A DNA stretch of 64,000 nt from Acidiphilium acidophilum (GTDB lineage: Bacteria; Pseudomonadota; Alphaproteobacteria; Acetobacterales; Acetobacteraceae): contig NZ_JAWXYB010000018.1 in NCBI RefSeq assembly GCF_033842475.1, positions 2,215,501 through 2,279,500 on the forward strand, in the 5' to 3' direction. The position numbers and the translations under genes were made by a program. Positions 15,279-41,553 of the stretch are shown here, one piece after another. The notes under the pieces were generated by a model that was not told the DNA's origin, did no database searches, and saw only the letters and a program-made list of their open reading frames with translations. How positions within the stretch are numbered: the first letter of the stretch is position 1; each line of letters opens with the position of its first letter.

Positions 15279-15355
15279 GGACCCGTAGCTCAGCTGGATA
15301 GAGCGTTGCCCTCCGAAGGCAAAGGTCGCGCGTTCGAATCGCGCCGGGTCCGCCA
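15279..15355 (+). tRNA. tRNA-Arg (anticodon CCG)
   Basis: A complete 77-nt tRNA: acceptor GGACCCG pairs with CGGGTCC, discriminator G, encoded CCA. The anticodon loop CTCCGAA reads CCG, and the T loop is GTTCGAATC. This is the chromosomal gene used as integration target; the element's attL core (15308-15356) supplies its 3' half, so the tRNA remains intact after integration. Confidence 0.97.
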
Positions 15356-15356
15356 A
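15308..15356. repeat. attL: left copy of the 49-bp integration core
   Basis: 49 bp from the anticodon stem of tRNA-Arg(CCG) to one base after its CCA, identical to 41505-41553. Identity stops sharply on both sides (TT versus TC before; A versus T after). A direct repeat of a tRNA 3' half next to a tyrosine integrase is the standard mark of site-specific integration. Confidence 0.95.
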
Positions 15357-15409
15357 ATTCCCCAAGAAAATCAACGACTTAGCAAAAGCGCCGGGAATTT
15401 ATTTGATTT

Positions 15410-15440
15410 TGCGCTCCAATTAAGGTCCAACTGCGCTCCA
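15410..15440. promoter_or_regulatory. Putative integrase arm-type sites, left end
   Basis: TGCGCTCCAAT at 15410-15420 and TGCGCTCCA at 15432-15440, with a degenerate copy (GGTCCAACT) between. The same 11-mer occurs twice in tandem at the other end of the element (41371-41392). Repeats shared by both ends, just inside the att cores, are what integrase N-terminal domains usually bind. Confidence 0.6.
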
Positions 15441-15453
15441 CAAGGAGACGGTG

Positions 15454-16503
15454 ATGGCAACGATTCGGGCGCGGCGAGATCGGGACAAAAACATAATCGG
15501 CTTCCAGGCGTTGATCCGGCGCGCTGGGCATCCACAACAAATCAAGACGTTCAGAAACAAGCGCGATGCAGAAATCTGGTCGAACGCCATTGAGTCAGAG
15601 ATGGAGCGCAACGTGTTCGTCGATCGCTCAGAAGCGTCTCGAACCACGCTCCGCCAGGTCCTAGAACGCTACAAGACCGAGATTTCGACGGCAAAGCGGG
15701 GGTCTGGCCCGGAAATATCTCGAATCACCGCTTTGATGGACCATCCGCTCGCATCCCGAAAAATGGCCGCCATCACGTCATCAGACATTGCCAAATGGCG
15801 GAACGAACGACTCCAAGCCGTATCTGCATCGACTACAAAAAGAGAAATGACGATCTTGTCTCACGTTTTCTCGATAGCGATCGACGAATGGGGTATCAGT
15901 CTCGAAAAGAATCCACTGGCGAAGGTTTCTAGACCAAAAGTTAACGATCAGCGTGATCGCAGATTTCAAGACGAAGAGGAAAAAGCGCTGATCGAAGCGG
16001 CGACGCAGTACGAACAGAGACAGGACGCAATGCCGATCGTGTTCATGATCCGGTTCCTGGTTGAAACCAGCATGCGCCGGTCTGAACTGGTTAATATGAA
16101 ATGGGAACACGTAAATCTGACTCGCCGTACCCTACGCATTCCGAACTCAAAAACCGATACCGAGCGTGAAAAAGGCAGGACGATTCCGATTTCATCGAAA
16201 GCTGTCGCCGTCTTGATCGACCTCGGCCCCCACGAAGCCGGACCCGTGTGGGGTAATATAAAGCCAGACTCTGTTACCAGAGCGTTTTCGCGGATCTGCG
16301 ACCGCGCCGGCCTAAAAAACCTGCGACTACATGACCTAAGGCACGAAGCGATTTCAAGAATCTATGAACAAACTGACTTGGATGCGCTGGAAGTCAGCCG
16401 GGTCAGCGGCCACAAGTCCATCTCGATGCTAAGCCGATACACGCATCTGCGCCCAGACGATCTGGCCGATCGCTTGGACGGCAAGCGACGCGGCGGCGGA
16501 TGA
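15454..16503 (+). CDS. int: Tyrosine site-specific integrase
   Basis: 349-residue recombinase that would integrate and excise the element at tRNA-Arg. The N-terminal part (MATIRARRDRDKNIIGFQAL, then TFRNKRDAEIWS) is an arm-binding/AP2-like domain; residues ~65-150 form the core-binding SAM-like domain. The catalytic domain retains R208 (MRRSEL), H293 and R296 (HDLRHEA), H320 (SGHKS) and nucleophile Y329 (RYTHLR). ATG 15454 is preferred over the adjacent GTG 15451 because AAGGAG at 15442-15447 lies 6 bp before it. It directly follows attL and has no frameshift, so it may be active. Confidence 0.95.
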   Translation: MATIRARRDRDKNIIGFQALIRRAGHPQQIKTFRNKRDAEIWSNAIESEMERNVFVDRSEASRTTLRQVLERYKTEISTAKRGSGPEISRITALMDHPLASRKMAAITSSDIAKWRNERLQAVSASTTKREMTILSHVFSIAIDEWGISLEKNPLAKVSRPKVNDQRDRRFQDEEEKALIEAATQYEQRQDAMPIVFMIRFLVETSMRRSELVNMKWEHVNLTRRTLRIPNSKTDTEREKGRTIPISSKAVAVLIDLGPHEAGPVWGNIKPDSVTRAFSRICDRAGLKNLRLHDLRHEAISRIYEQTDLDALEVSRVSGHKSISMLSRYTHLRPDDLADRLDGKRRGGG

Positions 16504-17440: not shown

Positions 17441-18575
17441 TTTACGCCGGGCCCGCCCGGCGGCGCGGCGCAGCCGCCTTGGCGATCTCGGCCCAGCCGG
17501 TGTGGTACGCCCGCGTTTTCTCAAGGCTCCGGTCTCCCGCCGGCCCGAACGCCGCGCCGGCGGTGCGGCGGGCATAGTCGGGCCAGTCATGCCTGCGCCC
17601 CTCTCTCGTCGTCGACCTTTCGATGATCTGTGCGATCGCATCGCGCCCGATCCCGATCGCCCGCAAGCGGATCGCGATCATAAAATCCACTTTGGACATA
17701 TCGCGCTCGGGCGCATCGCGCATCACGGTAGTCTCGATGTCGTGTAGAAAGACCTCATATAGCGCGTCCGGCGTCCCCCCGGCCTCGGGCCGCCCCATCG
17801 GCCTGATGGCCGGCCTGGCGGGGCTCGTCTGTTCCCTCACGCGCGGGGTTTGCGACATGATCGCGGCGATCCGATCTCGCCCGCCGGTCGATTGAGCAAC
17901 CTGATGTCTGGAAAATAGGGCGAGCGGGGGTCAGGCATCCTGGTAGTCCCACTTGATGTAGCCCTTGGTGTCGGCGGCCCATTTTTCATCGATTTCGACG
18001 AGGACGGCGCTGACGAGGCGTTCGAGGGAGGCTTCGTTGGGGAAGACCCTGATTTTGGTGGTGCGGCGTTTGAGTTCCTGCTGGATGCCGCGTTCCATGG
18101 GGTTGGAAGTGCGAAGCCGGCGCTGGTGGGGTTCTGGCAGTGTGAAGACGGTGAGGCCTTCGGGGATATTTCGTTCGAGCCAATCGGCGAGCTTTGGTGC
18201 GGTGTCGCGATAGGCATTGACGAGGGTTGTGAGAGCGATCTGGGCAGCGGCGAGGGAATTTGCGTTCCAGACGGTCCGGAGTTCTGCGCCGATGCGTTTG
18301 CGGATGGCGTGGTTGGGGGCGTGGTGGATGGCGTTTTGGGCGAGGTGGAACTGGCATCGTTGCCAGTGTGCGGCGCCGAAGACGGCGCGGCGTGCGGCGT
18401 GCAATCCGGCATGGTCATCGGAGACGATGAATTCGACGCCTCGCAGGCCACGCTGATGGAGGCTTTCGAGGAAGGCACGCCAATGGACTTCGGCCTCGGA
18501 AAGGGCGACCGAGACGCCGAGGACACGGCGGCGTTCATCGGGTCCGATGCCGATGGCCGAGAGCACGGCGGCATC

Positions 18576-19928
18576 GGTGGTGTAACCTGACGTCTGGAAA
18601 TTCATTTTGGGTTGGGAGTTGGTGCCCTTGCCGGGGCATGCCCCGGCAAGGGCTGTTCATTCTGGTATTCCATGCAGTTGTTCACACCAACATGGAGACC
18701 GATGAATGGACGCCAAAAAGGATACGATTATCGAGGCACTTTTGGAACATCTGATCGAAAACGGCGCAGGCGATATCGCCACGGTATTTGCCAGGACCTT
18801 CGAACTCGCCATGCAGATCGAGCGCGAACGCTTCCTCCACGCCAGTCACTACGAGCGCAACCCCGATCGTCAGGGTTACGCCAATGGCTACAAGCCCAAG
18901 CGGATCGATACCCCGGCCGGGTCGATCACCGTCGATGTCCCCAAAACCGCCGGTCACGTGGGCGAACCCTTCTACCCACAGTCCCTCGAACGCGGCCGAC
19001 GCTCGGTCCGCGCCGTCATGGTCGCCGTCGCCGAAATGTACATCAAAGGCGTCTCCACCCGCGACGTCGAGGCCGTCATGCGCGAATTCGGCATCGAAAG
19101 CCTCTCCTCCGCTCAGGTCAGCCGCGCCAGCAAGCTGCTCGATGACGAACTCGCCGCCTGGCGCACCCGACCCCTCGCCGAGATCCGCTACCTCATCCTC
19201 GACGCCAGATATGAAAAAATGCGCGATAATGGCGTCGTCCGCGATGCCGCCGTGCTCTCGGCCATCGGCATCGGACCCGATGAACGCCGCCGTGTCCTCG
19301 GCGTCTCGGTCGCCCTTTCCGAGGCCGAAGTCCATTGGCGTGCCTTCCTCGAAAGCCTCCATCAGCGTGGCCTGCGAGGCGTCGAATTCATCGTCTCCGA
19401 TGACCATGCCGGATTGCACGCCGCACGCCGCGCCGTCTTCGGCGCCGCACACTGGCAACGATGCCAGTTCCACCTCGCCCAAAACGCCATCCACCACGCC
19501 CCCAACCACGCCATCCGCAAACGCATCGGCGCAGAACTCCGGACCGTCTGGAACGCAAATTCCCTCGCCGCTGCCCAGATCGCTCTCACAACCCTCGTCA
19601 ATGCCTATCGCGACACCGCACCAAAGCTCGCCGATTGGCTCGAACGAAATATCCCCGAAGGCCTCACCGTCTTCACACTGCCAGAACCCCACCAGCGCCG
19701 GCTTCGCACTTCCAACCCCATGGAACGCGGCATCCAGCAGGAACTCAAACGCCGCACCACCAAAATCAGGGTCTTCCCCAACGAAGCCTCCCTCGAACGC
19801 CTCGTCAGCGCCGTCCTCGTCGAAATCGATGAAAAATGGGCCGCCGACACCAAGGGCTACATCAAGTGGGACTACCAGGATGCCTGACCCCCGCTCGCCC
19901 TATTTTCCAGACATCAGGTTGCTCAATC
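18576..19928 (+). mobile_element. IS256-family element, copy B, inserted within copy A
   Basis: A complete 1353-bp copy in the opposite orientation to its host, with an 8-bp duplication GCGGCATC (18568-18575 and 19929-19936). The self-insertion makes a large palindrome-like structure: about 650-680 bp of copy A on each side are complementary to parts of copy B. Confidence 0.96.
18706..19887 (+). CDS. tnpA: IS256-family transposase (copy B)
   Basis: 393-residue DDE transposase of the Mutator-like IS256 family. The three acidic regions are LDARYEK, VSDDHAG and the C-terminal NPMERGIQQELKRRTTK. The family's C/D(2)H motif is present as CQFH in HWQRCQFHLAQN. Identical to the products of copies C and D and intact throughout. 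A long reading frame on the opposite strand (up to 336 codons) is a codon-bias shadow of this gene. Confidence 0.97.
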   Translation: MDAKKDTIIEALLEHLIENGAGDIATVFARTFELAMQIERERFLHASHYERNPDRQGYANGYKPKRIDTPAGSITVDVPKTAGHVGEPFYPQSLERGRRSVRAVMVAVAEMYIKGVSTRDVEAVMREFGIESLSSAQVSRASKLLDDELAAWRTRPLAEIRYLILDARYEKMRDNGVVRDAAVLSAIGIGPDERRRVLGVSVALSEAEVHWRAFLESLHQRGLRGVEFIVSDDHAGLHAARRAVFGAAHWQRCQFHLAQNAIHHAPNHAIRKRIGAELRTVWNANSLAAAQIALTTLVNAYRDTAPKLADWLERNIPEGLTVFTLPEPHQRRLRTSNPMERGIQQELKRRTTKIRVFPNEASLERLVSAVLVEIDEKWAADTKGYIKWDYQDA

Positions 19929-20882
19929 GCGGCATCGCGGACGACGCCATTATCGCGCATTTTTTCATATCTGGCGTCGAGGATGAGGTAGCGGATCTCG
20001 GCGAGGGGTCGGGTGCGCCAGGCGGCGAGTTCGTCATCGAGCAGCTTGCTGGCGCGGCTGACCTGAGCGGAGGAGAGGCTTTCGATGCCGAATTCGCGCA
20101 TGACGGCCTCGACGTCGCGGGTGGAGACGCCTTTGATGTACATTTCGGCGACGGCGACCATGACGGCGCGGACCGAGCGTCGGCCGCGTTCGAGGGACTG
20201 TGGGTAGAAGGGTTCGCCCACGTGACCGGCGGTTTTGGGGACATCGACGGTGATCGACCCGGCCGGGGTATCGATCCGCTTGGGCTTGTAGCCATTGGCG
20301 TAACCCTGACGATCGGGGTTGCGCTCGTAGTGACTGGCGTGGAGGAAGCGTTCGCGCTCGATCTGCATGGCGAGTTCGAAGGTCCTGGCAAATACCGTGG
20401 CGATATCGCCTGCGCCGTTTTCGATCAGATGTTCCAAAAGTGCCTCGATAATCGTATCCTTTTTGGCGTCCATTCATCGGTCTCCATGTTGGTGTGAACA
20501 ACTGCATGGAATACCAGAATGAACAGCCCTTGCCGGGGCATGCCCCGGCAAGGGCACCAACTCCCAACCCAAAATGAATTTCCAGACGTCAGGTTACACC
20601 ACCCGCCGGTCCACTCCCCGCCTGTCGCTTCGATCATGGTGACGATCGGTGCTCCACCGTTGATCTGGCGTGCCTTTTTGACGTTCGGCGTCCCAGGCAT
20701 GCGATGCGGCTGGATAATATTTGTCAGTCCGGGATCGCCGAACTCCCGGTTTAGCTCTTGCGCCAGCGCGACAGACGCGAGATATTCTTGCGACTTTACA
20801 GATGATTCGAGATGTGGCGCATTGACGTTATGGATACGCGGTATTCTGATGAGCGCTTGCCATGAGCTTTGACTCGTTTGTT

Positions 20883-22546
20883 GTAACCGTTCACACCCCC
20901 CGGGTCAGACCGCTACCTGGGCAGGGATTGTGGGCAGCAGATTGTTAGCTCGTGCGGCGGTGATGAGGGCGCAGGCATAGGCCCATGGATCAGTGCCACG
21001 CTTGCGGCAGGTGTCAATGACGCTGAGCGCGGCGGCATAGAACCGGCTCCCTTCATCGGATCGCGTGCCAAAGCTGATGCGCCTCGAGATCACCGCGTGG
21101 CGGAGCGCACGTTCGGCATCATTGTTGGTGGGCGGTAAATCCCGATCGGCGACGAAGGCGACCACTGCGTCCCAGTCATTGAGGATTTCACCTGCCAGCC
21201 CGCGAACTTTCGCATCGATCTCATGGCGATTGCATTGACAGTTCCATTTGATGCTCGCGGTCAGGCGCTTGATGGCGGCGGGGTCGTCGCCGTCATGCAC
21301 GCGCTCGATCAGGCGGCGCAGATCGCGGACCAGATCGCTGCCGAAGCCTGATCCCGCGCCGTAATGCCCCTCTGCCAGCGCGCGGGCCTTACGGATCAGG
21401 TGCGCCAGACATCTCTGGCGGCGTGGATGATCGCGATAGGCACCGTAACCGTCGGTGACGAGCCAACCCAGAAAGGCCTCGCCGATCAGCGCGGCCAATT
21501 CGCAGTGCTTGCGGCTGCCGATCCGATAGACGATCGTGGTTGCCGTCACCGCAACCCAGAGCCACAGCAGACTTGCCTTTTGATACCACGGGGTTTCGTC
21601 GAGATGGACGATGTCAGCCGCACGCACATCTTCGATCAATTGCTCGACCACGGGTTCGCTCGCCAGACCGAATTCGTGAATGCAGCGTTCGATGGTGGCA
21701 ATCCCGAGCTCAACGCCCAGCCAGTCAGCCAGGAATTCAGCGATCTTGACGCGCGAGAGGCGGAAACGCAGCGACAGCGCCGCGATGAAGGTGGCGAGCA
21801 TCGGGCCAACCAGGCAGCGCTCGCTCATCAGCAGGTCGCGCCGGCGCCCCTCGACATGTGAGCACAGTCCGGTTGCGGGGCGTGCGATGGTCTCGTGGCC
21901 ACAGTCGCAGCGTATCGCCAGATAGCAATGTTTCGTGGCTGCGACATGAAGGCTCATGTCGCCGCGGGTGAGTTCAAAGCTCAGATGAGCGCTGACTTGG
22001 CGGCTTTGCGAGACGGTGGAAGATCCGAAAACTGCACGGCATGCGTCGCACGCTGTCGGCGCATGCAGGAGTTCACCGCTGACTATAATCGGCAACCGGC
22101 GCCAAAACCCTTTCGTCCCTGGCCGTTTGCCGGCCGGCTTGGGTCCAGGGTTGCCGGCGGAAGCGTTGCCGCCCGGCGCGGAACCACCACCCCCATCGGT
22201 TTTGTCGTCCCGGTCGGAGCGCTCAGAACTTTGCCCGCTCTTGGTGTTACGCCGGTAGGGATTGTCGCTGGAAGGCGGACGGGAACTGGTTGTTGAATCC
22301 TCGCCGGCATGGTTTGCCAGCGCTCGCGCCAATTCATGTAAATCCCAGGTCAGTTCTTCAAGCTCGACGCGCGACATCGCAGATAAATCAGTACGTTTAA
22401 TGTCTTTCAGGCCGGGGATTCTCTGACGGGGCATCAGAATCGTAGAGTCCGGTTCGGGTGGAAAAGCAAGCCCAGCCTTTCGACATTTTACCGGCCGTTG
22501 GCTAACGCTTCATTCGAGGCAAGAAAGGGGGGGTGTGAATGGTTAC
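20883..22546 (-). mobile_element. IS66-family element, copy 1
   Basis: 1664 bp with terminal inverted repeats GTAACCGTTCACACCCCCC / GTAACCATTCACACCCCCC (one mismatch) and an 8-bp duplication CGTTTGTT (20875-20882 and 22547-22554). GTAA ends and 8-bp duplications are typical of IS66. The single ORF without tnpA/tnpB accessory genes fits the ISBst12 subgroup. It splits the primase gene. Bases 22455-22546 between the gene start and the right end hold the IS promoter region. Confidence 0.95.
20905..22434 (-). CDS. tnpC: IS66-family transposase (copy 1)
   Basis: 509-residue transposase: an N-terminal leucine-zipper-like helix (MSRVELEELTWDLHELARAL), a Ser/Gly-rich linker (SSRPPSSDNPYRR), a zinc-binding region with CDAC, and the DDE catalytic domain with HLDETPWYQK and VTDGYGAYRDHP, followed by PPTNNDAERALRHAV containing the final glutamate. 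The product of copy 2 is identical. Other frames here are shadows. Confidence 0.95.
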   Translation of the reverse strand: MPRQRIPGLKDIKRTDLSAMSRVELEELTWDLHELARALANHAGEDSTTSSRPPSSDNPYRRNTKSGQSSERSDRDDKTDGGGGSAPGGNASAGNPGPKPAGKRPGTKGFWRRLPIIVSGELLHAPTACDACRAVFGSSTVSQSRQVSAHLSFELTRGDMSLHVAATKHCYLAIRCDCGHETIARPATGLCSHVEGRRRDLLMSERCLVGPMLATFIAALSLRFRLSRVKIAEFLADWLGVELGIATIERCIHEFGLASEPVVEQLIEDVRAADIVHLDETPWYQKASLLWLWVAVTATTIVYRIGSRKHCELAALIGEAFLGWLVTDGYGAYRDHPRRQRCLAHLIRKARALAEGHYGAGSGFGSDLVRDLRRLIERVHDGDDPAAIKRLTASIKWNCQCNRHEIDAKVRGLAGEILNDWDAVVAFVADRDLPPTNNDAERALRHAVISRRISFGTRSDEGSRFYAAALSVIDTCRKRGTDPWAYACALITAARANNLLPTIPAQVAV

Positions 22547-24285: not shown

Positions 24286-24489
24286 TTATTTATGCGCGGC
24301 GGCCTTCCCGGCGGTCGCGATCGACTTCGTTTTGGGGCTGCAATACTTCGCATTGGCGAAACGAGCGCCGGGCGAGGCGCAGGAATGAGCGAACCACTGG
24401 GGCGCGGGGGAGCCCCAACGCGCGAACGCAGGGCTGGTCGCGCCGACGAGGGCTGCAAGGGTGACGATTGAGATGATGACTGCGCGCAT
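24286..24489 (-). CDS. Small secreted protein of unknown function
   Basis: 67 residues: a clear signal peptide (RAVIISIVTLAALVGATSPAFA, cut after AFA) followed by a ~44-residue mature peptide with two cysteines (SCASPGARF, KYCSPKTKS) and a basic C-terminus. AGGAGATATCTC precedes the ATG. No family recognised. It reads away from the GATACC array, so its promoter probably lies inside or beside that array. Confidence 0.55.
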   Translation of the reverse strand: MRAVIISIVTLAALVGATSPAFARWGSPAPQWFAHSCASPGARFANAKYCSPKTKSIATAGKAAAHK

Positions 24490-24520
24490 TGAGATATCTC
24501 CTGATTGCCACCGACGTTGA

Positions 24521-24966
24521 TGGTATCAGTTATATAGTTGGTATCAGAATGGAACGCAATAGCTGATACCATGAATAACCGCCGCTCACGCTGTTGTGAT
24601 ACCATCTAAGCTGGAACGGCGATCGATACGTGATACCGGGTATCTGCCGCGCGGAGATATACCTGATACCATGTACCGGGGCGTATATGGTATCATGTAT
24701 ACGATATGCGATACCATCTATCACGTCGGGTAGGTGGTATCATATACGATCCGGGCAGCGATACCTGATACCATGTACCGCCGAGCCGCAGAGATATTTG
24801 TGATACCAGGTATGGAGTTTTTTATGGTATCATGTACCAGATTACTGATACCACCTAACAGGGTTTTCATGGTATCACCTATCGTTTACCTGATACCATC
24901 TATCAATCTCGTTGAATTATCTTTATATGGTATCAGGAAAACCCGATTGGACTCAAATCATGGTAT
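24521..24966. repeat. Array of ~18 GATACC/GGTATC motifs
   Basis: Motifs of the form TGATACCAT(G/C)TA or its complement occur about every 20-35 bp in both orientations, for example at 24564, 24597, 24665, 24688, 24736, 24766, 24825, 24869, 24891, 24927 and 24961. The ATG of the downstream RHH gene lies inside the last one. Layout next to a ribbon-helix-helix gene resembles plasmid partition centromeres or multi-site operators. No other gene is seen in this stretch. Confidence 0.8.
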
Positions 24967-25190
24967 CATATATAGCGAATCGCGTGGGCAGAAAACGGAT
25001 CAACGACGAGTTCATGAGCGCGAGATTCCCCGCCGGCACCTTTGCGCGCATCGACGCAAATCTGCGCGAGAGAGAGGCGCGGTCTGATTTTATTCGGCTT
25101 GCGGTCGATGCCGAGATCGCCCGGCGCGAGGGCGCTTCCGGCCCGCCACCAGCGAAAAAGAAGCCCGCCGCCCCGTCCGACCAGGGCTGA
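24960..25190 (+). CDS. Ribbon-helix-helix (CopG/Arc-like) DNA-binding protein
   Basis: 76 residues. The segment RINDEFMSARFPAGTFARID forms the ribbon strand and first helix, and ARSDFIRLAVDAEIARRE the second helix, a typical RHH plan; a Pro/Lys-rich tail follows. RHH dimers bind short repeated sites, and the gene lies at the end of the GATACC array with its start codon embedded in one motif, so it very likely binds the array and represses itself. An in-frame start at 24912 would add residues encoded by a further motif copy. Confidence 0.7.
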   Translation: MVSYIANRVGRKRINDEFMSARFPAGTFARIDANLREREARSDFIRLAVDAEIARREGASGPPPAKKKPAAPSDQG

Positions 25191-25271: not shown

Positions 25272-27431
25272 ATGGGCAGTTTCGTGATTCCGAGCGGAGA
25301 TTACGTCAACGCAATGTTCCTGATGATCTTTGGTCCCATCTGGACCGCGATCGTCAACTCGGGTCTCAATTTCGGCGCGGTCGGCAGTGCCGGGGGTGGC
25401 GTCTTCGGGCCTGCCTTCATGGTTTACAACCTGGCGATAATGGGCCTGACGCTTTTCTACATCGTCAAGATTGTGCTCGAAGGCGTCGTTGGCACGGCGT
25501 ACCATGGCGAATGGCTGGGCAAAAGTTTCCATGGCTTTTTCACGCCGATGCGCGTCATTATCATGCTCGCGCTGATCGCTCCGGTTTCTTCTGGCTTTTC
25601 AATCTCGCAGATCATCGTTTTGTGGACCGCCGGGCAGGCAATCGCAGTCGCGGACGGCATATCGAATACTATGCTAATCTCAATATTAAAGACAGGTTTA
25701 GTCTTCAATCCACAGATTATGCCGTCGTCGCGCCAAGTCGCCTCGTCTCTGCTACAAGACCTGGTATGCGTTGACACATATAATAGCGGCGCGTCTGGCG
25801 GGCCTGCCCTCATGACGTCAAGTAGTACCGGGTCCGGGACTACACATGGTGTTGAATTTGGTGGCAGACCTGGCACGAATATTTCACCGTCTGCTTGCGG
25901 CACGATCATCGTATCTTCCGCAAGTCAGCCGAAATCATCGGCGGAAATCAACGGAATCAACGCGATGATGCCGATATTGAATCCTGTCGCGCTCAAAATA
26001 ACGAACGGAGCCCTGGGCCAGCCGACGCAAAACACCTCGACCGGATCAGTATTATCTGGCTCTACTTCCGGCATTCCAAGTAACGCAGTAAGTCTCGCAG
26101 CCCAGGCGTATAGCGAAGCGGTGCAATCTGCGGTCGCGAGCCAGGTCACCGCCGCCAACTCCGGACTAACGAATTCGTGGTCGACCGCGCTCCAAAATGA
26201 CGGGTTCGGCGCGCTCGGGAGCTTCCAGATTCAGGTGTCATCGCTCGACCAGAAAATCGCTGACTTCAGCGCTGCGCAGCCCGATATCACCGGCCCGGCG
26301 ACCGCAGACCTACCGGCGGGCTATGGGTATCAGCAGACCAGCGCAGCCGCTATGTCATACATCGAAAATGACAATCAGTTAGCCGCAACGCCCGGCTCGC
26401 TGGCCGGCCAGATCACAAACCCGCTTGGAAACCTGAAGTCGGGATCGCTCATGGCGCGAATAATCGACCCCGTTTTGATCCGCCTGAATGGCTCGATACT
26501 AAGCGATGTCAAGTCGTTGTCGTCCTCAACAAGTAACCCGATTGGTGCTCTGCAAACGCTCGGCATTACGCTGATGGTATCCGGCCTGACGGCTTACTCG
26601 ATACTGTTGCTCGGCGTTGGTTCACTTGGGGCTGCCACTGGCAACCTCGTGGGCAATGCTGCGGGTGCAGGTAAAGCCGCGAGTTTCGTCATAGGGTTTA
26701 TCAAGCCCGTTGCACTTATGCTGATCGCGGGACCGATCTTGGCGGGCGGAATACTTGCATACGTCATTCCTGCGATGCTCTATATTATGTACACCTTTGC
26801 GGTCATTGGTTGGGTCGCGGCTGTATTTGTTGGGGTCGTCGGCGCACCGCTGTGGGCTGCGAGTCATGCAGTCCCGGATGGTGAAGGGTTTGTACCGGCT
26901 GGTGCGTCGCAAGGTTATAAGTTGCTGCTCTCAATATTCGCAAAGCCCGCGCTAATTGTATTCGGGTTCTTCGCCGCAATGTTGTTGTTCAGCGCGGGCG
27001 AATACCTGATCAACAAGACTTTCATTTTCGTTGCGAACGGCGTTCTACAGTCGAGCATGGGCGGTAGTGTCGCGCAAGGTGTTGCGGGGGCGCTCATGTC
27101 GCTAATTGGGACGTTGATATATGTCGGGATTCTTGTCGTGGTATACTGGAAGCTCGGCGAGTGGAGCTTTGGACTTGTCAATCTCGTGCCGGATCGGGCG
27201 CTCGATTGGATCGGGTTGAACGACATCTCGATGTCCGAGGAGGGCGTACATGGGGAGGTGTACGGCGGGGTGGTGAGCCATACGCGGACTGTCCAGGGGG
27301 CGGTCGTGCAACCGCTTCCTGAGCGCGCGGGTGGTGGCGGCAATGGGAACGAAAGCGGGGAAACTGGCAGCAACGCTACACCCGCCGCCAAGACGCTTGA
27401 GACCGACGTTCTTCCTGAACGGAATACATGA
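25272..27431 (+). CDS. DotA/TraY-family type IVB secretion membrane protein
   Basis: A 719-residue polytopic inner-membrane protein. The N-terminal third matches the DotA/TraY plan: a helix pair, then GEWLGKSFHGFFTPMRVIIMLALIAP, then SGFSISQIIVLWTAGQAIAVAD, a block conserved in DotA. A ~250-residue hydrophilic, Ser/Gly-rich (probably periplasmic) region follows, then a C-terminal membrane cluster (GILAYVIPAMLYIMYTFAVIGW, GAPLWAASHAVPDGEGF) and a charged tail. In IncI plasmids TraY is needed for transfer and is the target of entry exclusion. Here it stands alone, with no other Dot/Icm genes in the element. ATG 25272 has AGGAGG 7 bp upstream. Confidence 0.8.
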   Translation: MGSFVIPSGDYVNAMFLMIFGPIWTAIVNSGLNFGAVGSAGGGVFGPAFMVYNLAIMGLTLFYIVKIVLEGVVGTAYHGEWLGKSFHGFFTPMRVIIMLALIAPVSSGFSISQIIVLWTAGQAIAVADGISNTMLISILKTGLVFNPQIMPSSRQVASSLLQDLVCVDTYNSGASGGPALMTSSSTGSGTTHGVEFGGRPGTNISPSACGTIIVSSASQPKSSAEINGINAMMPILNPVALKITNGALGQPTQNTSTGSVLSGSTSGIPSNAVSLAAQAYSEAVQSAVASQVTAANSGLTNSWSTALQNDGFGALGSFQIQVSSLDQKIADFSAAQPDITGPATADLPAGYGYQQTSAAAMSYIENDNQLAATPGSLAGQITNPLGNLKSGSLMARIIDPVLIRLNGSILSDVKSLSSSTSNPIGALQTLGITLMVSGLTAYSILLLGVGSLGAATGNLVGNAAGAGKAASFVIGFIKPVALMLIAGPILAGGILAYVIPAMLYIMYTFAVIGWVAAVFVGVVGAPLWAASHAVPDGEGFVPAGASQGYKLLLSIFAKPALIVFGFFAAMLLFSAGEYLINKTFIFVANGVLQSSMGGSVAQGVAGALMSLIGTLIYVGILVVVYWKLGEWSFGLVNLVPDRALDWIGLNDISMSEEGVHGEVYGGVVSHTRTVQGAVVQPLPERAGGGGNGNESGETGSNATPAAKTLETDVLPERNT

Positions 27432-28420: not shown

Positions 28421-31207
28421 TCACCGAAGGCGCACCCGCGCTCGGTCCCGATCGACCCCGCCGACCACCACCGGCGCTACCACCGGCTCGGCCAGCTTCT
28501 CCGCCGCCGCCTGGCGCAATTCCGTCAGCCTTTCCCGATCGACCTCGCCCGGCCCGTCAGTCGCCCCGAGCGCCGTTTTTCTTTCGGCCCACCCCGCCCA
28601 CGACTTTGAAAGTCTGTTGATATTATCAGTAATGATCGAAAGCTGATACCGCTCGCGGCTGCACGCGACGTATGCGCTCTCTGCCGTTGCGACTCTCGAT
28701 GATTCCCCGGCGACGATCACGCTGTCGACCGTTCTTCCCTGGCTCAAATGCGTCGTCAGCGCCCAGCCTCGGTCGACTGCCACCCCTTTCCGCCGATCGA
28801 TCGTCGTCAGTCGCCCGTCATCCAACCGCACCGCCGCCGTTCCCTTCGCCTTGTCAACCTCCTCGACCACCCCCCCGGCCCCGTTGGTAATTCTTTCGTT
28901 CCCCCGCCCGATTGGCTCCCTGAACACCACCCGATCGCCTCCCGCGAGCGTCATGGCCCGCCGCGTATACACTCGCGCGCCCGCCACCGGCTTCCATCGT
29001 TTCTCGGCCCCAGCATCATCAACAAGTATAACCTCGCCGCCAGCAACGTCACGGACAGTGTAATCCACAAGCTGCTTGTTCTCATAAAGTCGCACGATCA
29101 TCCCGGATTTATACGTGACCGCCCGCGATAGTGCTTCTTTCGTCGCATCGACTTTATCAAGCGCGATGATCTCGATTTCGTCGCCGCTGATCTCACGTTG
29201 TAGTTTTAGACCAGCACGGATGAGGTCGTTGACTTGCTGGCGGACCGCATTTGTGCCGCTGAGTACAAGGGTCGATGCGCGATCTTCTGGGTTTTTACTA
29301 AGATATGCTTGCGCTGTAGCGGCGGCAATGGCCGCGCGACGCTCCATGGTGGTCGGAAGTGGCTTGCCGTCGGCCCCGCGTTGCGCGGTCGGAACTGCGA
29401 CTTCAGACATAAATGGGCGGGCGGCGATTACGGCCTCGGCTGCCCGGCCAGACGCGAACGCGCTGGCGATCTTCAAGAGATTAGGGTCTTTTTGTCGTTG
29501 AATCTCGCTGATCCGTGCGGTTTGGAGGGAGCCAGACTCAATCATCTGACCGAAAGGTGACCCGGCCGCGACGCTTGCAAGCTGGCGCGGGTCGCCAACG
29601 AAAATCGCTCGATCGCCCGCCGATTCGATCTGTGCGATCAGACGTTCCATGTCTGATGATCCGACCATGCCAGACTCGTCGATCAGGATGAGGCGGCCCC
29701 CGCCCGGTGGCGGTTTTGCGAGGAAACTTGCGATGGTCGTGCTGTCGCAGCCCGCCGACCTCAACTCGCGCGCGGCGCTGGTCGATGGCGCGAGTCCGAT
29801 GATTTCGAACCCGCCGGCGCGGGCCGCTTGAACGAGGGCGTTCATCGCGGTGGTTTTCCCCGCGCCCGCCGCGCCAACAATTCCGATATACCGATCACTT
29901 GTGGTGAGCGCGAGGCTGATCGCGGAACGCTGGCCCTGCCCATACTGCCACCCCTGGTCGACCTCACGCGCGGCGATGAATCGGGCGGCTTCGTCGGCCT
30001 CGGTAATCGGCGCAATCTGCTCGCGTCCGGCACGCGCGGCGGCCAGGATCAGTGACTCTCTATATAAGGAGTCCTCCGTGGCCAGCCGCCCGCCGCCCGC
30101 ATCGATCAACCCGGCTTCACCTGCCGCGATCGCCTGGTCGATCTCGTCGATCATCGCCGCGCCGATGCCGAACGTGAGCGCTTCGAGCCGGACCGAGTCT
30201 CTCGGAAAGACGCTTGCCCGCTCGCTCAAATGCCGCGCCGCCGATCGAACTGCCTCGCCCGCCTTCGATTCCGGGGCTGGCATGGTCCCGCGTTTGATGG
30301 CTGCTCGCGCCGCAAACGTCAGCCCCAGCCCCAGCGCCGCCGACCGCTCGCGCCATTCTTGCTGCTGATCTTGTTGGGCCAGGCCGGATTTCCCTTGTCG
30401 CGTTTTCAGATTCGCGGCGGTTCGCTGGGCAGCGGTGCTGTCGTCGCGGTCGAGGCCGGCATCTTCGAGCGCTTCGTCGATTTGGACCTTGCGCTGGCTA
30501 AAATGCTCGATCGCATCTGCCGGGATACCAGCGATCTCGAAACCGTCCCCCGTTGGCTCGATCCCGTACCCGAGCCTGACCAGTGACCTTGCCAGCGCAC
30601 TTTTATATATACTGTCCGCCAGCCTCATCCGAACAGCTTGCTCACCCCAGTCCAGATCGACTGCGCGTAATCCATCCGGCCCCCGTGTCGCATTTATGAT
30701 AATACAATGTGAGTGTAGCTGCGGGTCAGCCCGGCCATCAACTGATCGCGCATCTTCGTGTCTGAAAATGGCAGCCGCAATACCGCCACCCGATCGCGTT
30801 TTTACTCCATTTTTACCGAACCGCGACTTTGCGACTTCCCGCTCGACGAATTTTAATGCCTCTTTTACTGCTGCATCATGCGCGATTGCGATGCGCTCGT
30901 CGCCACCGATGAGGCACATCATTGAGACTGACTTCGGCGCGCTCAGGGTGACGTCATGGCCCGCGCGGCGATCTGACCTTGTTTTACCGAGATCCTCAGC
31001 GCCGATTCGCCCCTCTAGCGCCGCGAGGAAATCTTGATCTTCGACCGCGCCGACCAGACCGCTTTCGGCTGCCAGCCCGCCGATCCACTGCGACGGTGCG
31101 CCACTATTATAGTAACCATGTTTTGCCTCGGGCCTGGGCTTTTTATGTTTACAATAGCGAACGATTTTCTTTGCGTCTTTGGCTGATAGCGGTTTTGTCG
31201 ACAACAT
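28421..31207 (-). CDS. MobF-family conjugative relaxase/helicase (TrwC/TraI type)
   Basis: Nicks the transfer origin and pilots the single strand during conjugation. From start 31207 (928 residues, MLSTKPLSAKDAKKIVRYC) Tyr18 lies where TrwC has its first nicking tyrosine, and a Tyr-Tyr pair follows at ~32-33. GHDVTLSAPKSVSMM (~84-98) is MobF motif; the three metal histidines are in FRHEDAR and DPQLHSHC (about 150, 165, 167). The C-terminal helicase half has Walker A GAAGAGKTTAM, ILIDESGMVGS and a UvrD-like end (STHLSQGRTVDSVIV). GGAG sits 9 bp before ATG 31207; an in-frame ATG at 31222 overlaps it. Intact. Confidence 0.93.
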   Translation of the reverse strand: MLSTKPLSAKDAKKIVRYCKHKKPRPEAKHGYYNSGAPSQWIGGLAAESGLVGAVEDQDFLAALEGRIGAEDLGKTRSDRRAGHDVTLSAPKSVSMMCLIGGDERIAIAHDAAVKEALKFVEREVAKSRFGKNGVKTRSGGGIAAAIFRHEDARSVDGRADPQLHSHCIIINATRGPDGLRAVDLDWGEQAVRMRLADSIYKSALARSLVRLGYGIEPTGDGFEIAGIPADAIEHFSQRKVQIDEALEDAGLDRDDSTAAQRTAANLKTRQGKSGLAQQDQQQEWRERSAALGLGLTFAARAAIKRGTMPAPESKAGEAVRSAARHLSERASVFPRDSVRLEALTFGIGAAMIDEIDQAIAAGEAGLIDAGGGRLATEDSLYRESLILAAARAGREQIAPITEADEAARFIAAREVDQGWQYGQGQRSAISLALTTSDRYIGIVGAAGAGKTTAMNALVQAARAGGFEIIGLAPSTSAARELRSAGCDSTTIASFLAKPPPGGGRLILIDESGMVGSSDMERLIAQIESAGDRAIFVGDPRQLASVAAGSPFGQMIESGSLQTARISEIQRQKDPNLLKIASAFASGRAAEAVIAARPFMSEVAVPTAQRGADGKPLPTTMERRAAIAAATAQAYLSKNPEDRASTLVLSGTNAVRQQVNDLIRAGLKLQREISGDEIEIIALDKVDATKEALSRAVTYKSGMIVRLYENKQLVDYTVRDVAGGEVILVDDAGAEKRWKPVAGARVYTRRAMTLAGGDRVVFREPIGRGNERITNGAGGVVEEVDKAKGTAAVRLDDGRLTTIDRRKGVAVDRGWALTTHLSQGRTVDSVIVAGESSRVATAESAYVACSRERYQLSIITDNINRLSKSWAGWAERKTALGATDGPGEVDRERLTELRQAAAEKLAEPVVAPVVVGGVDRDRARVRLR

Positions 31208-31223
31208 TTTGATGATCTCCATC

Positions 31224-31647: not shown

Positions 31648-31664
31648 TCACAAAATTGGTGTGA
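31648..31664 (+). promoter_or_regulatory. Leader palindrome before the prepilin gene
   Basis: TCACAAAATTGGTGTGA, perfect half-sites with a 7-bp spacer, ending 41 bp before ATG 31706. Then comes a hairpin with 8-bp arms (GCCCGTCG 31674-31681, CGGCGGGC 31686-31693, one G-T pair) and GGAGGG. Confidence 0.7.
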
Positions 31665-31705
31665 TCGACAGAAGCCCGTCGAGGTCGGCGGGCATGGAGG
31701 GTAAG

Positions 31706-32341
31706 ATGAGATTGATAAGAGCTAAAAAGGGTGTGACCGGAATCGAGTATGGGATGTTGCTCGCGCTGATCGGCGCGGTGATCCTCGTGCCGGTCATATC
31801 AACCGGTGCGAGTTTGCAACAAATATTTTGCAATATGGGTGGGGCAATAGGGGGCGCGGCGTGCCCAGATGCAAGTGCCGCCCCGCCGGCTACGCTGCCG
31901 ATTACGTTCCCGCAGACGAGCGTCGCAAATATCGGTCCCAGCGATCAACTATTTGCGACATCAACCGGCAGTCTCGACGGCGTTATTATCAGTCCGGCGG
32001 CAGCATCTATTTATCCGATCGGCCCTTTCGGCACGTCGTATAGTTCGACCGGCAACGAATCTATTGCGACGTTCGGTAATGGAACAGGATCGCCCTGGGG
32101 CGCGATTGTTGACAATGCGCCGGCGCTCGATGCACTCAAAAGTGCGTGCAGCGCTGGCGTCGTCCCGGCGACGTCCGTTCATCAGGTACCCGCCGGGCCG
32201 CCGGGCGGGGTGGCGATTGTTACGTCGATTGGCGACACGCCGACGAATGAGCTTGATTCGCTACAGTATGGTACAGCGACCGCAGGCTCAAATTTTTCAT
32301 CGAGCGATTCAGTCGTGACGTGCGCCGCACCGGCAGGCTGA
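31706..32341 (+). CDS. Flp-type (type IVb) prepilin-like protein with long C-terminal domain
   Basis: 211 residues. The N-terminus MRLIRAKKG / VTGIEYGMLLALIGAVI is a textbook Flp prepilin site: cleavage after Gly9, with Glu at +5 and Tyr at +6, followed by the hydrophobic assembly helix. True Flp pilins are only 50-80 residues; here ~170 polar, Ser/Thr/Gly-rich residues with four cysteines (IFCNMGG, AACPDA, KSACSAG, VVTCAAP) follow, more like a minor pilin or pseudopilin. No pilus ATPase or prepilin peptidase is present in the element, so it would rely on host or helper machinery. A strong terminator follows. Confidence 0.75.
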   Translation: MRLIRAKKGVTGIEYGMLLALIGAVILVPVISTGASLQQIFCNMGGAIGGAACPDASAAPPATLPITFPQTSVANIGPSDQLFATSTGSLDGVIISPAAASIYPIGPFGTSYSSTGNESIATFGNGTGSPWGAIVDNAPALDALKSACSAGVVPATSVHQVPAGPPGGVAIVTSIGDTPTNELDSLQYGTATAGSNFSSSDSVVTCAAPAG

Positions 32342-32611: not shown

Positions 32612-33964
32612 GGTGGTGTAACCTGACGTCTGGAAATTCATTTTGGGTTGGGAGTTGGTGCCCTTGCCGGGGCATGCCCCGGCAAGGGCTGTTCATTCTG
32701 GTATTCCATGCAGTTGTTCACACCAACATGGAGACCGATGAATGGACGCCAAAAAGGATACGATTATCGAGGCACTTTTGGAACATCTGATCGAAAACGG
32801 CGCAGGCGATATCGCCACGGTATTTGCCAGGACCTTCGAACTCGCCATGCAGATCGAGCGCGAACGCTTCCTCCACGCCAGTCACTACGAGCGCAACCCC
32901 GATCGTCAGGGTTACGCCAATGGCTACAAGCCCAAGCGGATCGATACCCCGGCCGGGTCGATCACCGTCGATGTCCCCAAAACCGCCGGTCACGTGGGCG
33001 AACCCTTCTACCCACAGTCCCTCGAACGCGGCCGACGCTCGGTCCGCGCCGTCATGGTCGCCGTCGCCGAAATGTACATCAAAGGCGTCTCCACCCGCGA
33101 CGTCGAGGCCGTCATGCGCGAATTCGGCATCGAAAGCCTCTCCTCCGCTCAGGTCAGCCGCGCCAGCAAGCTGCTCGATGACGAACTCGCCGCCTGGCGC
33201 ACCCGACCCCTCGCCGAGATCCGCTACCTCATCCTCGACGCCAGATATGAAAAAATGCGCGATAATGGCGTCGTCCGCGATGCCGCCGTGCTCTCGGCCA
33301 TCGGCATCGGACCCGATGAACGCCGCCGTGTCCTCGGCGTCTCGGTCGCCCTTTCCGAGGCCGAAGTCCATTGGCGTGCCTTCCTCGAAAGCCTCCATCA
33401 GCGTGGCCTGCGAGGCGTCGAATTCATCGTCTCCGATGACCATGCCGGATTGCACGCCGCACGCCGCGCCGTCTTCGGCGCCGCACACTGGCAACGATGC
33501 CAGTTCCACCTCGCCCAAAACGCCATCCACCACGCCCCCAACCACGCCATCCGCAAACGCATCGGCGCAGAACTCCGGACCGTCTGGAACGCAAATTCCC
33601 TCGCCGCTGCCCAGATCGCTCTCACAACCCTCGTCAATGCCTATCGCGACACCGCACCAAAGCTCGCCGATTGGCTCGAACGAAATATCCCCGAAGGCCT
33701 CACCGTCTTCACACTGCCAGAACCCCACCAGCGCCGGCTTCGCACTTCCAACCCCATGGAACGCGGCATCCAGCAGGAACTCAAACGCCGCACCACCAAA
33801 ATCAGGGTCTTCCCCAACGAAGCCTCCCTCGAACGCCTCGTCAGCGCCGTCCTCGTCGAAATCGATGAAAAATGGGCCGCCGACACCAAGGGCTACATCA
33901 AGTGGGACTACCAGGATGCCTGACCCCCGCTCGCCCTATTTTCCAGACATCAGGTTGCTCAATC
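32612..33964 (+). mobile_element. IS256-family element, copy C
   Basis: Intact 1353-bp copy, identical in layout to copies B and D, with an 8-bp duplication TGTGTGGA (32604-32611 and 33965-33972). It sits between the 11-bp repeats and the ParA operon, in non-coding DNA. Confidence 0.96.
32742..33923 (+). CDS. tnpA: IS256-family transposase (copy C)
   Basis: 393 residues, identical to the copy B product, with all three acidic regions and the CQFH motif intact. Read the entry at 18706 for domain details. Confidence 0.96.
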   Translation: MDAKKDTIIEALLEHLIENGAGDIATVFARTFELAMQIERERFLHASHYERNPDRQGYANGYKPKRIDTPAGSITVDVPKTAGHVGEPFYPQSLERGRRSVRAVMVAVAEMYIKGVSTRDVEAVMREFGIESLSSAQVSRASKLLDDELAAWRTRPLAEIRYLILDARYEKMRDNGVVRDAAVLSAIGIGPDERRRVLGVSVALSEAEVHWRAFLESLHQRGLRGVEFIVSDDHAGLHAARRAVFGAAHWQRCQFHLAQNAIHHAPNHAIRKRIGAELRTVWNANSLAAAQIALTTLVNAYRDTAPKLADWLERNIPEGLTVFTLPEPHQRRLRTSNPMERGIQQELKRRTTKIRVFPNEASLERLVSAVLVEIDEKWAADTKGYIKWDYQDA

Positions 33965-34275: not shown

Positions 34276-34596
34276 ATGGCAATTGAGGAGCTACGCGGCC
34301 CACCACCCGAACCCGATATCCGCGCGGTCGTAATCAGACACTATCACGACATCAGGGCCGCGCGCGCCGGAGGGTGGAGATGGTCGGCAATCGGGATCGT
34401 CATCGGGTTGCCCGGTGAGGCAATCCGGCGGGCGTTTGAGCGAGTTGATCGCCGGATTGTCGCCGGCCTGCTGACCCCCCCTGCTGCACCACCACCATCG
34501 GCGGGGCTGAAGGTTGCCAGGCCCGCCGCGCTGGCCGCCGCCGCCCGCCCGTTCGGGTCCAATTTTGAAGATCTTACTCAGGGAACAAATTCATGA
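34276..34596 (+). CDS. Hypothetical small protein, first gene of the ParA operon
   Basis: 106 residues. The central part (AVVIRHYHDIRAARAGGWRWSAIG, IGLPGEAIRRAFERVDRR) looks like a helix-turn-helix with an extra helix; the C-terminus is Pro/Ala-rich. Not recognised. It overlaps the ParA-like gene by ATGA (34593-34596) and follows the leader palindrome, so it is co-expressed with the ATPase; a DNA-binding partner of the ATPase is a reasonable guess. Confidence 0.55.
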   Translation: MAIEELRGPPPEPDIRAVVIRHYHDIRAARAGGWRWSAIGIVIGLPGEAIRRAFERVDRRIVAGLLTPPAAPPPSAGLKVARPAALAAAARPFGSNFEDLTQGTNS

Positions 34597-35312
34597 AGAA
34601 ACTCCTACTGGTTCATGGCGATAAAGGCGGGGTCGGCAAATCGACACTTGCCTCAGCCTTGATCGACCTCGCGCTGGCCGGCGGTCCAATATGCGTGGTT
34701 GAAGGAGACATAAAAGTTGCCGATGTCGCCCGCCGCTTCAGTGGCATTCCGGACGTGCTTGGCTTGGTGATCGATCTCGCGCGACCGGACGGTTCAGAAG
34801 ATGCGATTATCGGGCTCTTCGAAAAGATCGAAGCGGCGGGTGCGCCAGAGATGATCGTCGTCAATCTTCCTGCGGGCGCGTCAAGTACGATCGACGCTCA
34901 AGCTCAAATCCTTCATGCCGCGTCGCGCGAAATCGGATACGAAATCAGGGTGGCCTGGATGATTGGGGCGGGCGCGGACTCGGCGCGGCTGGCCGGTGAA
35001 TCGGCGATATGCCGCGTAGCCGACAAGAAGATCGCAGTGTTCAATGCTGCTCTCGGCGAAATTGCAAAATCGGTCTGGATGAATCATCCGGCGCGCGACG
35101 CATGGCTATCAAGCGGCGGCCTGGAAACAATCATGCCGGCGCTCGCAAGTCGCGTGATGACCGAGGTACGAGACCGGCCCGGTCGATACACTGATCTCAT
35201 CGCGCCAACATCGGGACTGTCTGTTATTTCGAGGCAGATAATCAAAAATTGGATGTCGGCAATCGCCGCCGGCCCCGGCGGGCTGATGTTCCATGATGGA
35301 GATGAAAAATGA
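34593..35312 (+). CDS. ParA/MinD-like (VirC1-type) ATPase
   Basis: 239 residues with a deviant Walker A motif HGDKGGVGKST (about 8-18), the signature of ParA/MinD ATPases. EGDIKVADVAR follows the first switch region, and MIVVNLPAGAS is the Walker B-like strand. Such proteins either partition plasmids or bring relaxosomes to the pole (VirC1). The neighbour is a TraM-like protein rather than ParB, which leans toward mobilisation. It overlaps genes on both sides by 4 bp, giving a compact three-gene operon. Confidence 0.8.
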   Translation: MKKLLLVHGDKGGVGKSTLASALIDLALAGGPICVVEGDIKVADVARRFSGIPDVLGLVIDLARPDGSEDAIIGLFEKIEAAGAPEMIVVNLPAGASSTIDAQAQILHAASREIGYEIRVAWMIGAGADSARLAGESAICRVADKKIAVFNAALGEIAKSVWMNHPARDAWLSSGGLETIMPALASRVMTEVRDRPGRYTDLIAPTSGLSVISRQIIKNWMSAIAAGPGGLMFHDGDEK

Positions 35313-35874
35313 TCACACCCCCGCGCTATCCAATAACCGAGCCGATCCCACCAGATCATATATACGAAGATGGTCAAGACGAACTTCTCGAAGACCACCC
35401 CGACCTCTTAAAGATCGCGAATCGGTACGGCATCAAAGACGATGATCCCGTCTGGCTTCTCGTGCAGGCCGTCGCGGACGCGGAACGCGCCGCCTCGGGC
35501 GCTACCGGGGCGATCATCGCCCTCGAAGCCGCCCGCCAATTGCTCGACTCGATGCCAGCCCGGATCGAAGAATCCGCCGCGTCCGCCGCCGCGCGCCTTG
35601 AGGGCGATCTATCGACATGGGGAACGACCGCCGCCGCGATAGTATCCGCCCGCCTAAAATCCATGCTCATCGACCTGATGCCCGAGGTCGAGCGTCACTC
35701 GAAAGCCTCGATGAACGCGCTATCAACAATAGTCGATACACTCTCACTCGATATAACCTCAATCGAAGCAAAGATGAGGGCCGCATTTGCGAGCGCGCAA
35801 AGTCGATACCGCGATGATCTCGCGGATACCGCCCGCACTTTAATACAAGCTGAACTGGTGAAGACAACAAGGCG

Positions 35875-37538
35875 GTAACCGTTCACACCCCCCGGGTCAG
35901 ACCGCTACCTGGGCAGGGATTGTGGGCAGCAGATTGTTAGCTCGTGCGGCGGTGATGAGGGCGCAGGCATAGGCCCATGGATCAGTGCCACGCTTGCGGC
36001 AGGTGTCAATGACGCTGAGCGCGGCGGCATAGAACCGGCTCCCTTCATCGGATCGCGTGCCAAAGCTGATGCGCCTCGAGATCACCGCGTGGCGGAGCGC
36101 ACGTTCGGCATCATTGTTGGTGGGCGGTAAATCCCGATCGGCGACGAAGGCGACCACTGCGTCCCAGTCATTGAGGATTTCACCTGCCAGCCCGCGAACT
36201 TTCGCATCGATCTCATGGCGATTGCATTGACAGTTCCATTTGATGCTCGCGGTCAGGCGCTTGATGGCGGCGGGGTCGTCGCCGTCATGCACGCGCTCGA
36301 TCAGGCGGCGCAGATCGCGGACCAGATCGCTGCCGAAGCCTGATCCCGCGCCGTAATGCCCCTCTGCCAGCGCGCGGGCCTTACGGATCAGGTGCGCCAG
36401 ACATCTCTGGCGGCGTGGATGATCGCGATAGGCACCGTAACCGTCGGTGACGAGCCAACCCAGAAAGGCCTCGCCGATCAGCGCGGCCAATTCGCAGTGC
36501 TTGCGGCTGCCGATCCGATAGACGATCGTGGTTGCCGTCACCGCAACCCAGAGCCACAGCAGACTTGCCTTTTGATACCACGGGGTTTCGTCGAGATGGA
36601 CGATGTCAGCCGCACGCACATCTTCGATCAATTGCTCGACCACGGGTTCGCTCGCCAGACCGAATTCGTGAATGCAGCGTTCGATGGTGGCAATCCCGAG
36701 CTCAACGCCCAGCCAGTCAGCCAGGAATTCAGCGATCTTGACGCGCGAGAGGCGGAAACGCAGCGACAGCGCCGCGATGAAGGTGGCGAGCATCGGGCCA
36801 ACCAGGCAGCGCTCGCTCATCAGCAGGTCGCGCCGGCGCCCCTCGACATGTGAGCACAGTCCGGTTGCGGGGCGTGCGATGGTCTCGTGGCCACAGTCGC
36901 AGCGTATCGCCAGATAGCAATGTTTCGTGGCTGCGACATGAAGGCTCATGTCGCCGCGGGTGAGTTCAAAGCTCAGATGAGCGCTGACTTGGCGGCTTTG
37001 CGAGACGGTGGAAGATCCGAAAACTGCACGGCATGCGTCGCACGCTGTCGGCGCATGCAGGAGTTCACCGCTGACTATAATCGGCAACCGGCGCCAAAAC
37101 CCTTTCGTCCCTGGCCGTTTGCCGGCCGGCTTGGGTCCAGGGTTGCCGGCGGAAGCGTTGCCGCCCGGCGCGGAACCACCACCCCCATCGGTTTTGTCGT
37201 CCCGGTCGGAGCGCTCAGAACTTTGCCCGCTCTTGGTGTTACGCCGGTAGGGATTGTCGCTGGAAGGCGGACGGGAACTGGTTGTTGAATCCTCGCCGGC
37301 ATGGTTTGCCAGCGCTCGCGCCAATTCATGTAAATCCCAGGTCAGTTCTTCAAGCTCGACGCGCGACATCGCAGATAAATCAGTACGTTTAATGTCTTTC
37401 AGGCCGGGGATTCTCTGACGGGGCATCAGAATCGTAGAGTCCGGTTCGGGTGGAAAAGCAAGCCCAGCCTTTCGACATTTTACCGGCCGTTGGCTAACGC
37501 TTCATTCGAGGCAAGAAAGGGGGGGTGTGAATGGTTAC
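35875..37538 (-). mobile_element. IS66-family element, copy 2
   Basis: 1664 bp, the same ends and ORF as copy 1, with an 8-bp duplication ACAAGGCG (35867-35874 and 37539-37546). Confidence 0.95.
35897..37426 (-). CDS. tnpC: IS66-family transposase (copy 2)
   Basis: 509 residues, identical to the product at 20905-22434, with an intact DDE domain. The gene opposes the operon it interrupts. Confidence 0.95.
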   Translation of the reverse strand: MPRQRIPGLKDIKRTDLSAMSRVELEELTWDLHELARALANHAGEDSTTSSRPPSSDNPYRRNTKSGQSSERSDRDDKTDGGGGSAPGGNASAGNPGPKPAGKRPGTKGFWRRLPIIVSGELLHAPTACDACRAVFGSSTVSQSRQVSAHLSFELTRGDMSLHVAATKHCYLAIRCDCGHETIARPATGLCSHVEGRRRDLLMSERCLVGPMLATFIAALSLRFRLSRVKIAEFLADWLGVELGIATIERCIHEFGLASEPVVEQLIEDVRAADIVHLDETPWYQKASLLWLWVAVTATTIVYRIGSRKHCELAALIGEAFLGWLVTDGYGAYRDHPRRQRCLAHLIRKARALAEGHYGAGSGFGSDLVRDLRRLIERVHDGDDPAAIKRLTASIKWNCQCNRHEIDAKVRGLAGEILNDWDAVVAFVADRDLPPTNNDAERALRHAVISRRISFGTRSDEGSRFYAAALSVIDTCRKRGTDPWAYACALITAARANNLLPTIPAQVAV

Positions 37539-41350: not shown

Positions 41351-41370
41351 CGAACGAAAGGTAGGAATCT

Positions 41371-41392
41371 TGCGCTCCAATTGCGCTCCAAT
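41371..41392. promoter_or_regulatory. Putative integrase arm-type sites, right end
   Basis: Two tandem copies of TGCGCTCCAAT (41371-41381 and 41382-41392), the same word as at 15410 and (shortened) 15432 inside the left end. Confidence 0.6.
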
Positions 41393-41407
41393 TATCCCCC
41401 GAAAATC

Positions 41408-41443
41408 GGTATCCGGCGGTATCGAGAGGTATCCGCCGGTATC
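41408..41443. repeat. Four GGTATC motifs at exact 10-bp spacing
   Basis: GGTATC begins at 41408, 41418, 41428 and 41438, one helical turn apart, all in the same orientation. It is the same core as the array in front of the RHH gene. Located between the arm sites and attR, it may be where the RHH protein acts on excision. The bases from here to attR hold no gene. Confidence 0.65.
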
Positions 41444-41504: not shown

Positions 41505-41553
41505 GCCCTCCGAAGGCAAAGGTCGCGCGTTCGAATCGCGCCGGGTCCGCCAA
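41505..41553. repeat. attR: right copy of the 49-bp integration core
   Basis: Identical to 15308-15356. It holds only the 3' half of tRNA-Arg(CCG), without a D arm or 5' acceptor strand, so it is not a functional tRNA gene. It marks the right end of the element. Confidence 0.95.

Follow-up and report, generated by a model that had tools for sequence, protein, structure and literature searches.

Small ribbon-helix-helix (RHH) autorepressors of phages and plasmids, of the Arc and CopG type, are short proteins with a strand-helix-helix layout in which residues of the N-terminal strand alternate toward the DNA, and their operators lie over their own promoter. RHH strands in known complexes show just such an alternation of DNA-facing residues, as with Q9, N11 and R13 of Arc. 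In another described system, the RHH protein Omega/ParB of plasmid pSM19035 binds 7-bp repeats that double as operators, with four or more contiguous heptad repeats typifying partition of this kind (PMC9499535).

Here we analyze a 64,000-nucleotide stretch of Acidiphilium acidophilum DNA (the window), in which a large array of short sites stands in front of a predicted RHH repressor gene. The locus resembles Omega/ParB of pSM19035 in its predicted RHH protein, in the 7-bp repeat geometry and in having sites at what would be the gene's own promoter, but in place of long runs of contiguous heptads it has inverted hexamers in operators set apart by gaps, and it lacks an adjacent cognate ParA. It departs from the Arc and CopG type in that each operator contains three TA steps spaced by 7 bp, and in that there are 17–19 such operators rather than 2–4. 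A literature search found no published work on the operator of this RHH family; the comparisons below allow us to predict both a function and an operator for this family of small RHH proteins from phages and plasmids.

Results

The array lies within a mobile element of about 26 kb (15308–41553) that is integrated at tRNA-Arg, on a 3.6-Mb contig of a 4.16-Mb genome. The element is bounded by identical 49-bp repeats on the plus strand, attL (15308..15356), inside the 3′ part of tRNA-Arg(CCG) (15279–15355), and attR (41505..41553); a tyrosine integrase gene (15451..16503, +) adjoins the left end, and a MobF (TrwC-type) relaxase-helicase is encoded at 28421..31222 (−). TTGCGCTCCAATTA repeats at 15409–15422 and 41370–41394, beside both att sites, are probably integrase arm sites. 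Other element genes include one near the right end (37815–39698) whose product matches a DNA primase family (PHROG 35358, 1.7e-27) and one (31661–32341) with a weak, below-cutoff Flp/Fap pilin match (1.7e-5). The element also contains several insertion sequences. Several copies of one 393-aa transposase gene are present (17931–20473, 32742–33923 and 46777–47958), the first region apparently holding one copy inserted into another in opposite orientation. Two same-orientation 509-aa transposase genes (20905–22434 and 35897–37426), identical by eye as far as compared, bracket the array and the RHH, dotA, relaxase and ATPase genes, and this pair with the genes it encloses could be a composite element. 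An Rfam search returned no family except tRNA.

The array and RHH gene DNA are absent from 12 congeners, apart from one 40-bp partial match (E 5e-4), and an RHH match is also present in a congener contig near 64.3 kb. In the search for close relatives of the element, plasmid DNA gave no match. No exact empty site was recovered in the congeners, where matches stop at the att repeat, and a related congener integrase (48%) is found at tRNA-Val; its att region has no GATACC cluster nearby.

The operator array (24505..24983) fills the intergenic gap between two divergent genes, that of a small predicted secreted protein on its left side (24286..24489, −; signal peptide judged by eye) and the RHH gene (+). 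Between 24522 and 24967 we find 19 exact cores in 446 bp, 10 GATACC and 9 GGTATC, which bears out the roughly 18 copies in 445 bp reported in front of the RHH gene by a first-pass annotation. The cores are at 24522−, 24540−, 24565+, 24598+, 24632+, 24639−, 24665+, 24689−, 24710+, 24736−, 24760+, 24767+, 24802+, 24826−, 24847+, 24871−, 24892+, 24929− and 24962−, where the sign gives the orientation. Dinucleotide-shuffled versions of the array contain 0.7 cores on average and at most 5, and the window as a whole contains 61 matches to GATACC/GGTATC versus 19.9 expected. TGATACCAT occurs 20 times in the 4.16-Mb genome, with 11 copies inside the array, and every one of the seven genomic occurrences of a stricter operator, TANNNGATACCNNNTA, falls within it. 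The G+C content of the array is 44%, against 54–57% in the surrounding 2-kb windows, and no sigma-70-like promoter directed toward the RHH gene was found in it. When the array is shifted against itself so that most sites coincide, spacer identity is about 35%, while all 19 cores are intact; intact cores among nearly unrelated spacers suggest selection on the sites rather than fresh duplication. With spacer identity at only about 35% for the best-supported offsets, we reject the view that the entire array arose by recent tandem duplication.

A scan of viral contigs for pairs of TGATACCAT returned 59 stretches; one of them, in L173, has more than four cores in its vicinity, namely 8 of the GATACC type at 11488–11650, mostly 18 bp apart. 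In another viral contig (L223), a TCTATGG/CCATAGA word recurs 17 times within 450 bp around position 2114.

The RHH gene (24984..25190, +) would encode 68 residues from GTG 24984, or 76 if translation began at ATG 24960. Three lines lead us to the RHH assignment: the sequence pattern, the alignment of the family and the predicted order of strand, helix and helix. A single-chain model (mean pLDDT 84) has a strand region followed by helices at residues 19–26 and 33–50, and structure searches return weak RHH-like matches in the PDB (CopG-family 7by2, E 0.08; CdbA 6sbx, Z 4.4). A Pfam search with the protein gave no match. NCBIfam YlcI_YnfO_N (NF041551) scores 25.2 bits, under its cutoff of 30; the likeness to the YlcI/YnfO family is this below-cutoff match of the RHH core, and the E. 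coli ylcI and ynfO promoters, unlike the window, lack the operator set.

Comparison with about 121 relatives bears on the start codon. The codon that precedes a conserved Gly-Arg is ATG in 53 of them and GTG in 49, and in several the frame upstream of this position contains a stop. Because ATG or GTG precedes Gly-Arg across the relatives, translation in the window probably starts at GTG 24984, and ATGGTATCA (24960..24968, −) would therefore be the last operator core, 24 nt upstream of the start. This offset from the conserved ATG/GTG is the same in relatives, and phages carry GTGATATCA at the place that matches the last operator of the window. The first-pass annotation had read ATGGTATCA at 24960 as the start codon, which is in frame; given the conserved ATG/GTG, we judge a start there unlikely. 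A group of sphingomonad plasmids is the exception, with GTT, GCA or GTC at the conserved position, and translation of their RHH genes probably starts further upstream. Directly downstream of the window RHH gene, and probably co-transcribed with it, is a dotA/traY-family gene (25272..27431, +; TIGR04346, 5e-83) with AGGAGG at 25260. Among DotA homologues in the family, identity does not exceed 29%, and such an array accompanies none of them in the fetched DNA.

We then compared about 120 loci that carry a relative of the RHH gene, drawn from plasmids, genomes and viral contigs, with upstream motifs taken from a blind short-word count for each RHH gene; directed counts added the GATACC pairs of the sphingomonad plasmids. 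The blind count finds a palindrome-like hexamer (GATATC, CATATG, TGTACA, TACATACG or others) in most loci, and in most of the relatives it is present in 2–7 copies directly upstream of the RHH gene. No tested hexamer is present twice in 35 of 122 loci, several of which have single or variant sites. When the sites are aligned, they share one common form, TA-N5-TA-N5-TA, with a variable hexamer surrounding the middle TA; logos drawn for four classes of hexamer have the flanking TA steps in common. Of 97 loci, 63 have the strict form close to the start of the RHH gene, compared with 0.06% of control windows. The consensus in the window, ATANNTGATACCATNTAY, has this form too, and its strict version is confined to the array in this genome. 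Most relatives have 2–4 operator copies upstream of the RHH gene versus 17–19 in the window, and the highest word count near an RHH gene in the other fetched loci is about seven. From this comparison, the window array appears to be an expanded operator, unique among the RHH loci sampled.

The class of hexamer (GATATC, CATATG, GATACC, TGTACA or others) tracks the DNA-facing strand residues 10, 12 and 14, even at matched relatedness. Within the family, residue 12 is the best predictor of hexamer class and residue 14 the second best, followed by 34, 7, 8 and 10. When pairs of proteins with helices 60–70% identical are considered, a matching that controls for shared ancestry in part, residue 12 is identical in 79% of same-class versus 1% of different-class pairs; the corresponding values are 46 versus 42% for residue 11 and 68 versus 59% for residue 13, both of which are expected to face inward. 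P12 is seen with GATATC, Q12 with CATATG, and S, M, L or T12 with GATACC, a class with few independent members, 4 after redundancy removal. This covariation of residue and hexamer is the strongest indication we have that the RHH protein would bind the array, and the protein-to-DNA recognition code that it describes is apparently new to the literature.

We conclude that the array is most likely the RHH protein's own operator, because the operator co-occurs with the family and its hexamer follows the DNA-facing residues; on these computational grounds, sites that match the specificity of the protein stand upstream of its own gene. Array binding and self-repression by the RHH protein had both been proposed in the first-pass annotation; binding is strongly supported by the co-occurrence and by covariation with the DNA-contact strand, while self-repression is something we infer. 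It is highly improbable that the repeats are replication iterons for an initiator unrelated to the RHH protein, as the hexamer tracks the RHH protein in relatives and the primase-like gene of the element (37815–39698), which together with the multiple short repeats upstream of a gene might suggest such a role, is 13 kb from the array.

A further proposal of the first-pass annotation, that array, RHH protein and a ParA-like ATPase encoded at 34593 form a split partition system, is not supported. The ATPase (34593..35312, +) is MobD/StbB-like and is the middle product of a MobD-type trio, flanked by genes for a small protein (34276..34596, +) and for the third member (35309..35878, +). Its matches to ParA-type models are weak; it shares 31% identity with a P-loop NTPase from a plasmid, some of the plasmid proteins that it matches are annotated mobD, and it has the deviant Walker A motif KGGXXK[T/S] of the MobD/TraL group (MKKLLLVHGDKGGVGKST), which together with the mob-type trio points to the StbB/MobD group. 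In Xanthomonas and Pseudorhodobacter plasmids, the homologous ATPase gene is likewise the middle of a similar-sized three-gene unit near relaxase genes; the outer two genes have no detectable similarity to those of the Pseudorhodobacter plasmid (L233). MobD belongs to the StbB group, and StbB of R388 is needed for transfer, not for stability (PMC3098194).

We therefore regard it as unlikely that the array is a centromere-like site for which the RHH protein serves as a ParB-like adaptor, segregating the excised element with the 34593 ATPase. The RHH ParB of pSM19035 offers a precedent, as its 7-bp repeats are also operators (PMC9499535), the window operator has the same 7-bp period, and the number of sites is beyond the need of autoregulation. 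The array even contains two ladders, runs of 5–6 TA steps in 7-bp register, most operators being separated by gaps. However, no cognate ParA is encoded with the window RHH protein, the nearest ATPase found being 9.4 kb away in its own trio of a transfer-related type; most relatives that share these operators lack a ParA in the fetched DNA; and no plasmid replication initiator was identified in the element, which is chromosomal. A ParA-like motif is found near the RHH gene only in the sphingomonad GATACC-pair group, whose annotated plasmids carry their own ParB. These plasmids share with the window a GGTATC/GATACC hexamer upstream of the RHH gene, but have just two sites 25 bp apart, and their RHH gene adjoins a full ParA-ParB operon and a gene for a single-stranded-DNA-binding protein. 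In L012, L014 and L015 the RHH gene, which lies between the latter two, is often unannotated.

Conjugation suggests another role: like TrwA or TraY, the RHH protein could be an accessory protein of the relaxosome, with the array marking or flanking an oriT for the MobF relaxase. The element does encode such a relaxase, and some accessory proteins of the RHH type are known to regulate their own genes as well (PMC4175270), but operators of the same form are found in phage and viral contigs, several of the neighborhoods we viewed have no conjugation genes, the relaxase gene is 3 kb from the array, and no R388-like nic sequence was found in the array. We consider this role decidedly unlikely.

A second cluster, of four GATACC cores (as GGTATC; 41408..41443, −) at an exact 10-bp spacing, lies 62 bp inside attR, between the arm-like repeats and the attR core. 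GATACC cores spaced by 10 bp are found here alone in the genome, and even a triple occurs nowhere else. These cores lack the flanking TA steps of the array operators, and the cluster is thus not supported as a further set of operators of the same form. The RHH protein might nonetheless bind these four repeats and steer excision, as a dual-role regulator like Apl of phage 186, though we think this rather doubtful. The uniqueness of the cluster is consistent with such a role. Directionality factors are known to bind direct repeats spaced by one turn of the helix, Apl acts at att as well as at promoter sites (PMC7498355), and some RHH relatives lie near integrase-like genes. Set against this are the missing TA steps and the rarity with which relatives have another cluster of their cognate hexamer (2 of 86); moreover, the directionality factors of this kind that have been studied best belong to the winged-helix proteins. 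The broader idea that one RHH protein joins the array and the attR repeats, acting as master repressor and excision regulator with the 19-site array as its hub, is likewise improbable.

Discussion

Our analysis favors autoregulation, and we think it likely that the array is an expanded, cooperatively bound autoregulatory super-operator over the RHH-dotA operon. Each site would be an 18-bp element, with three TA steps 7 bp apart around the specificity hexamer, to which two or more RHH dimers would probably bind via the outward N-terminal strand residues F10, S12 and R14. In relatives, the 2–4 sites extend over the promoter and the segment immediately ahead of the start codon; in the window, this set has grown to 17–19 sites, which take up most of the space separating the secreted-protein gene from the RHH-dotA operon. 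By coating the array cooperatively, the RHH protein would turn its own operon off with a steep threshold, and the divergent secreted-protein gene may be shut off as well. Cooperativity we infer, as we do the reason for the expansion. Three observations speak against this reading: no sigma-70-like promoter toward the RHH gene was found in the array, autoregulation alone does not account for 19 sites where relatives have 2–4, and 35 of 122 loci have none of the tested hexamers twice.

If the RHH protein did also act at attR, it would be an RHH counterpart of the winged-helix Apl-type factors. For the family, the comparison suggests a readable code, from strand residue to DNA hexamer, that is directly testable, and the 19-site array would provide a natural case in which to see what a five- to tenfold expansion of an operator does to a genetic switch.
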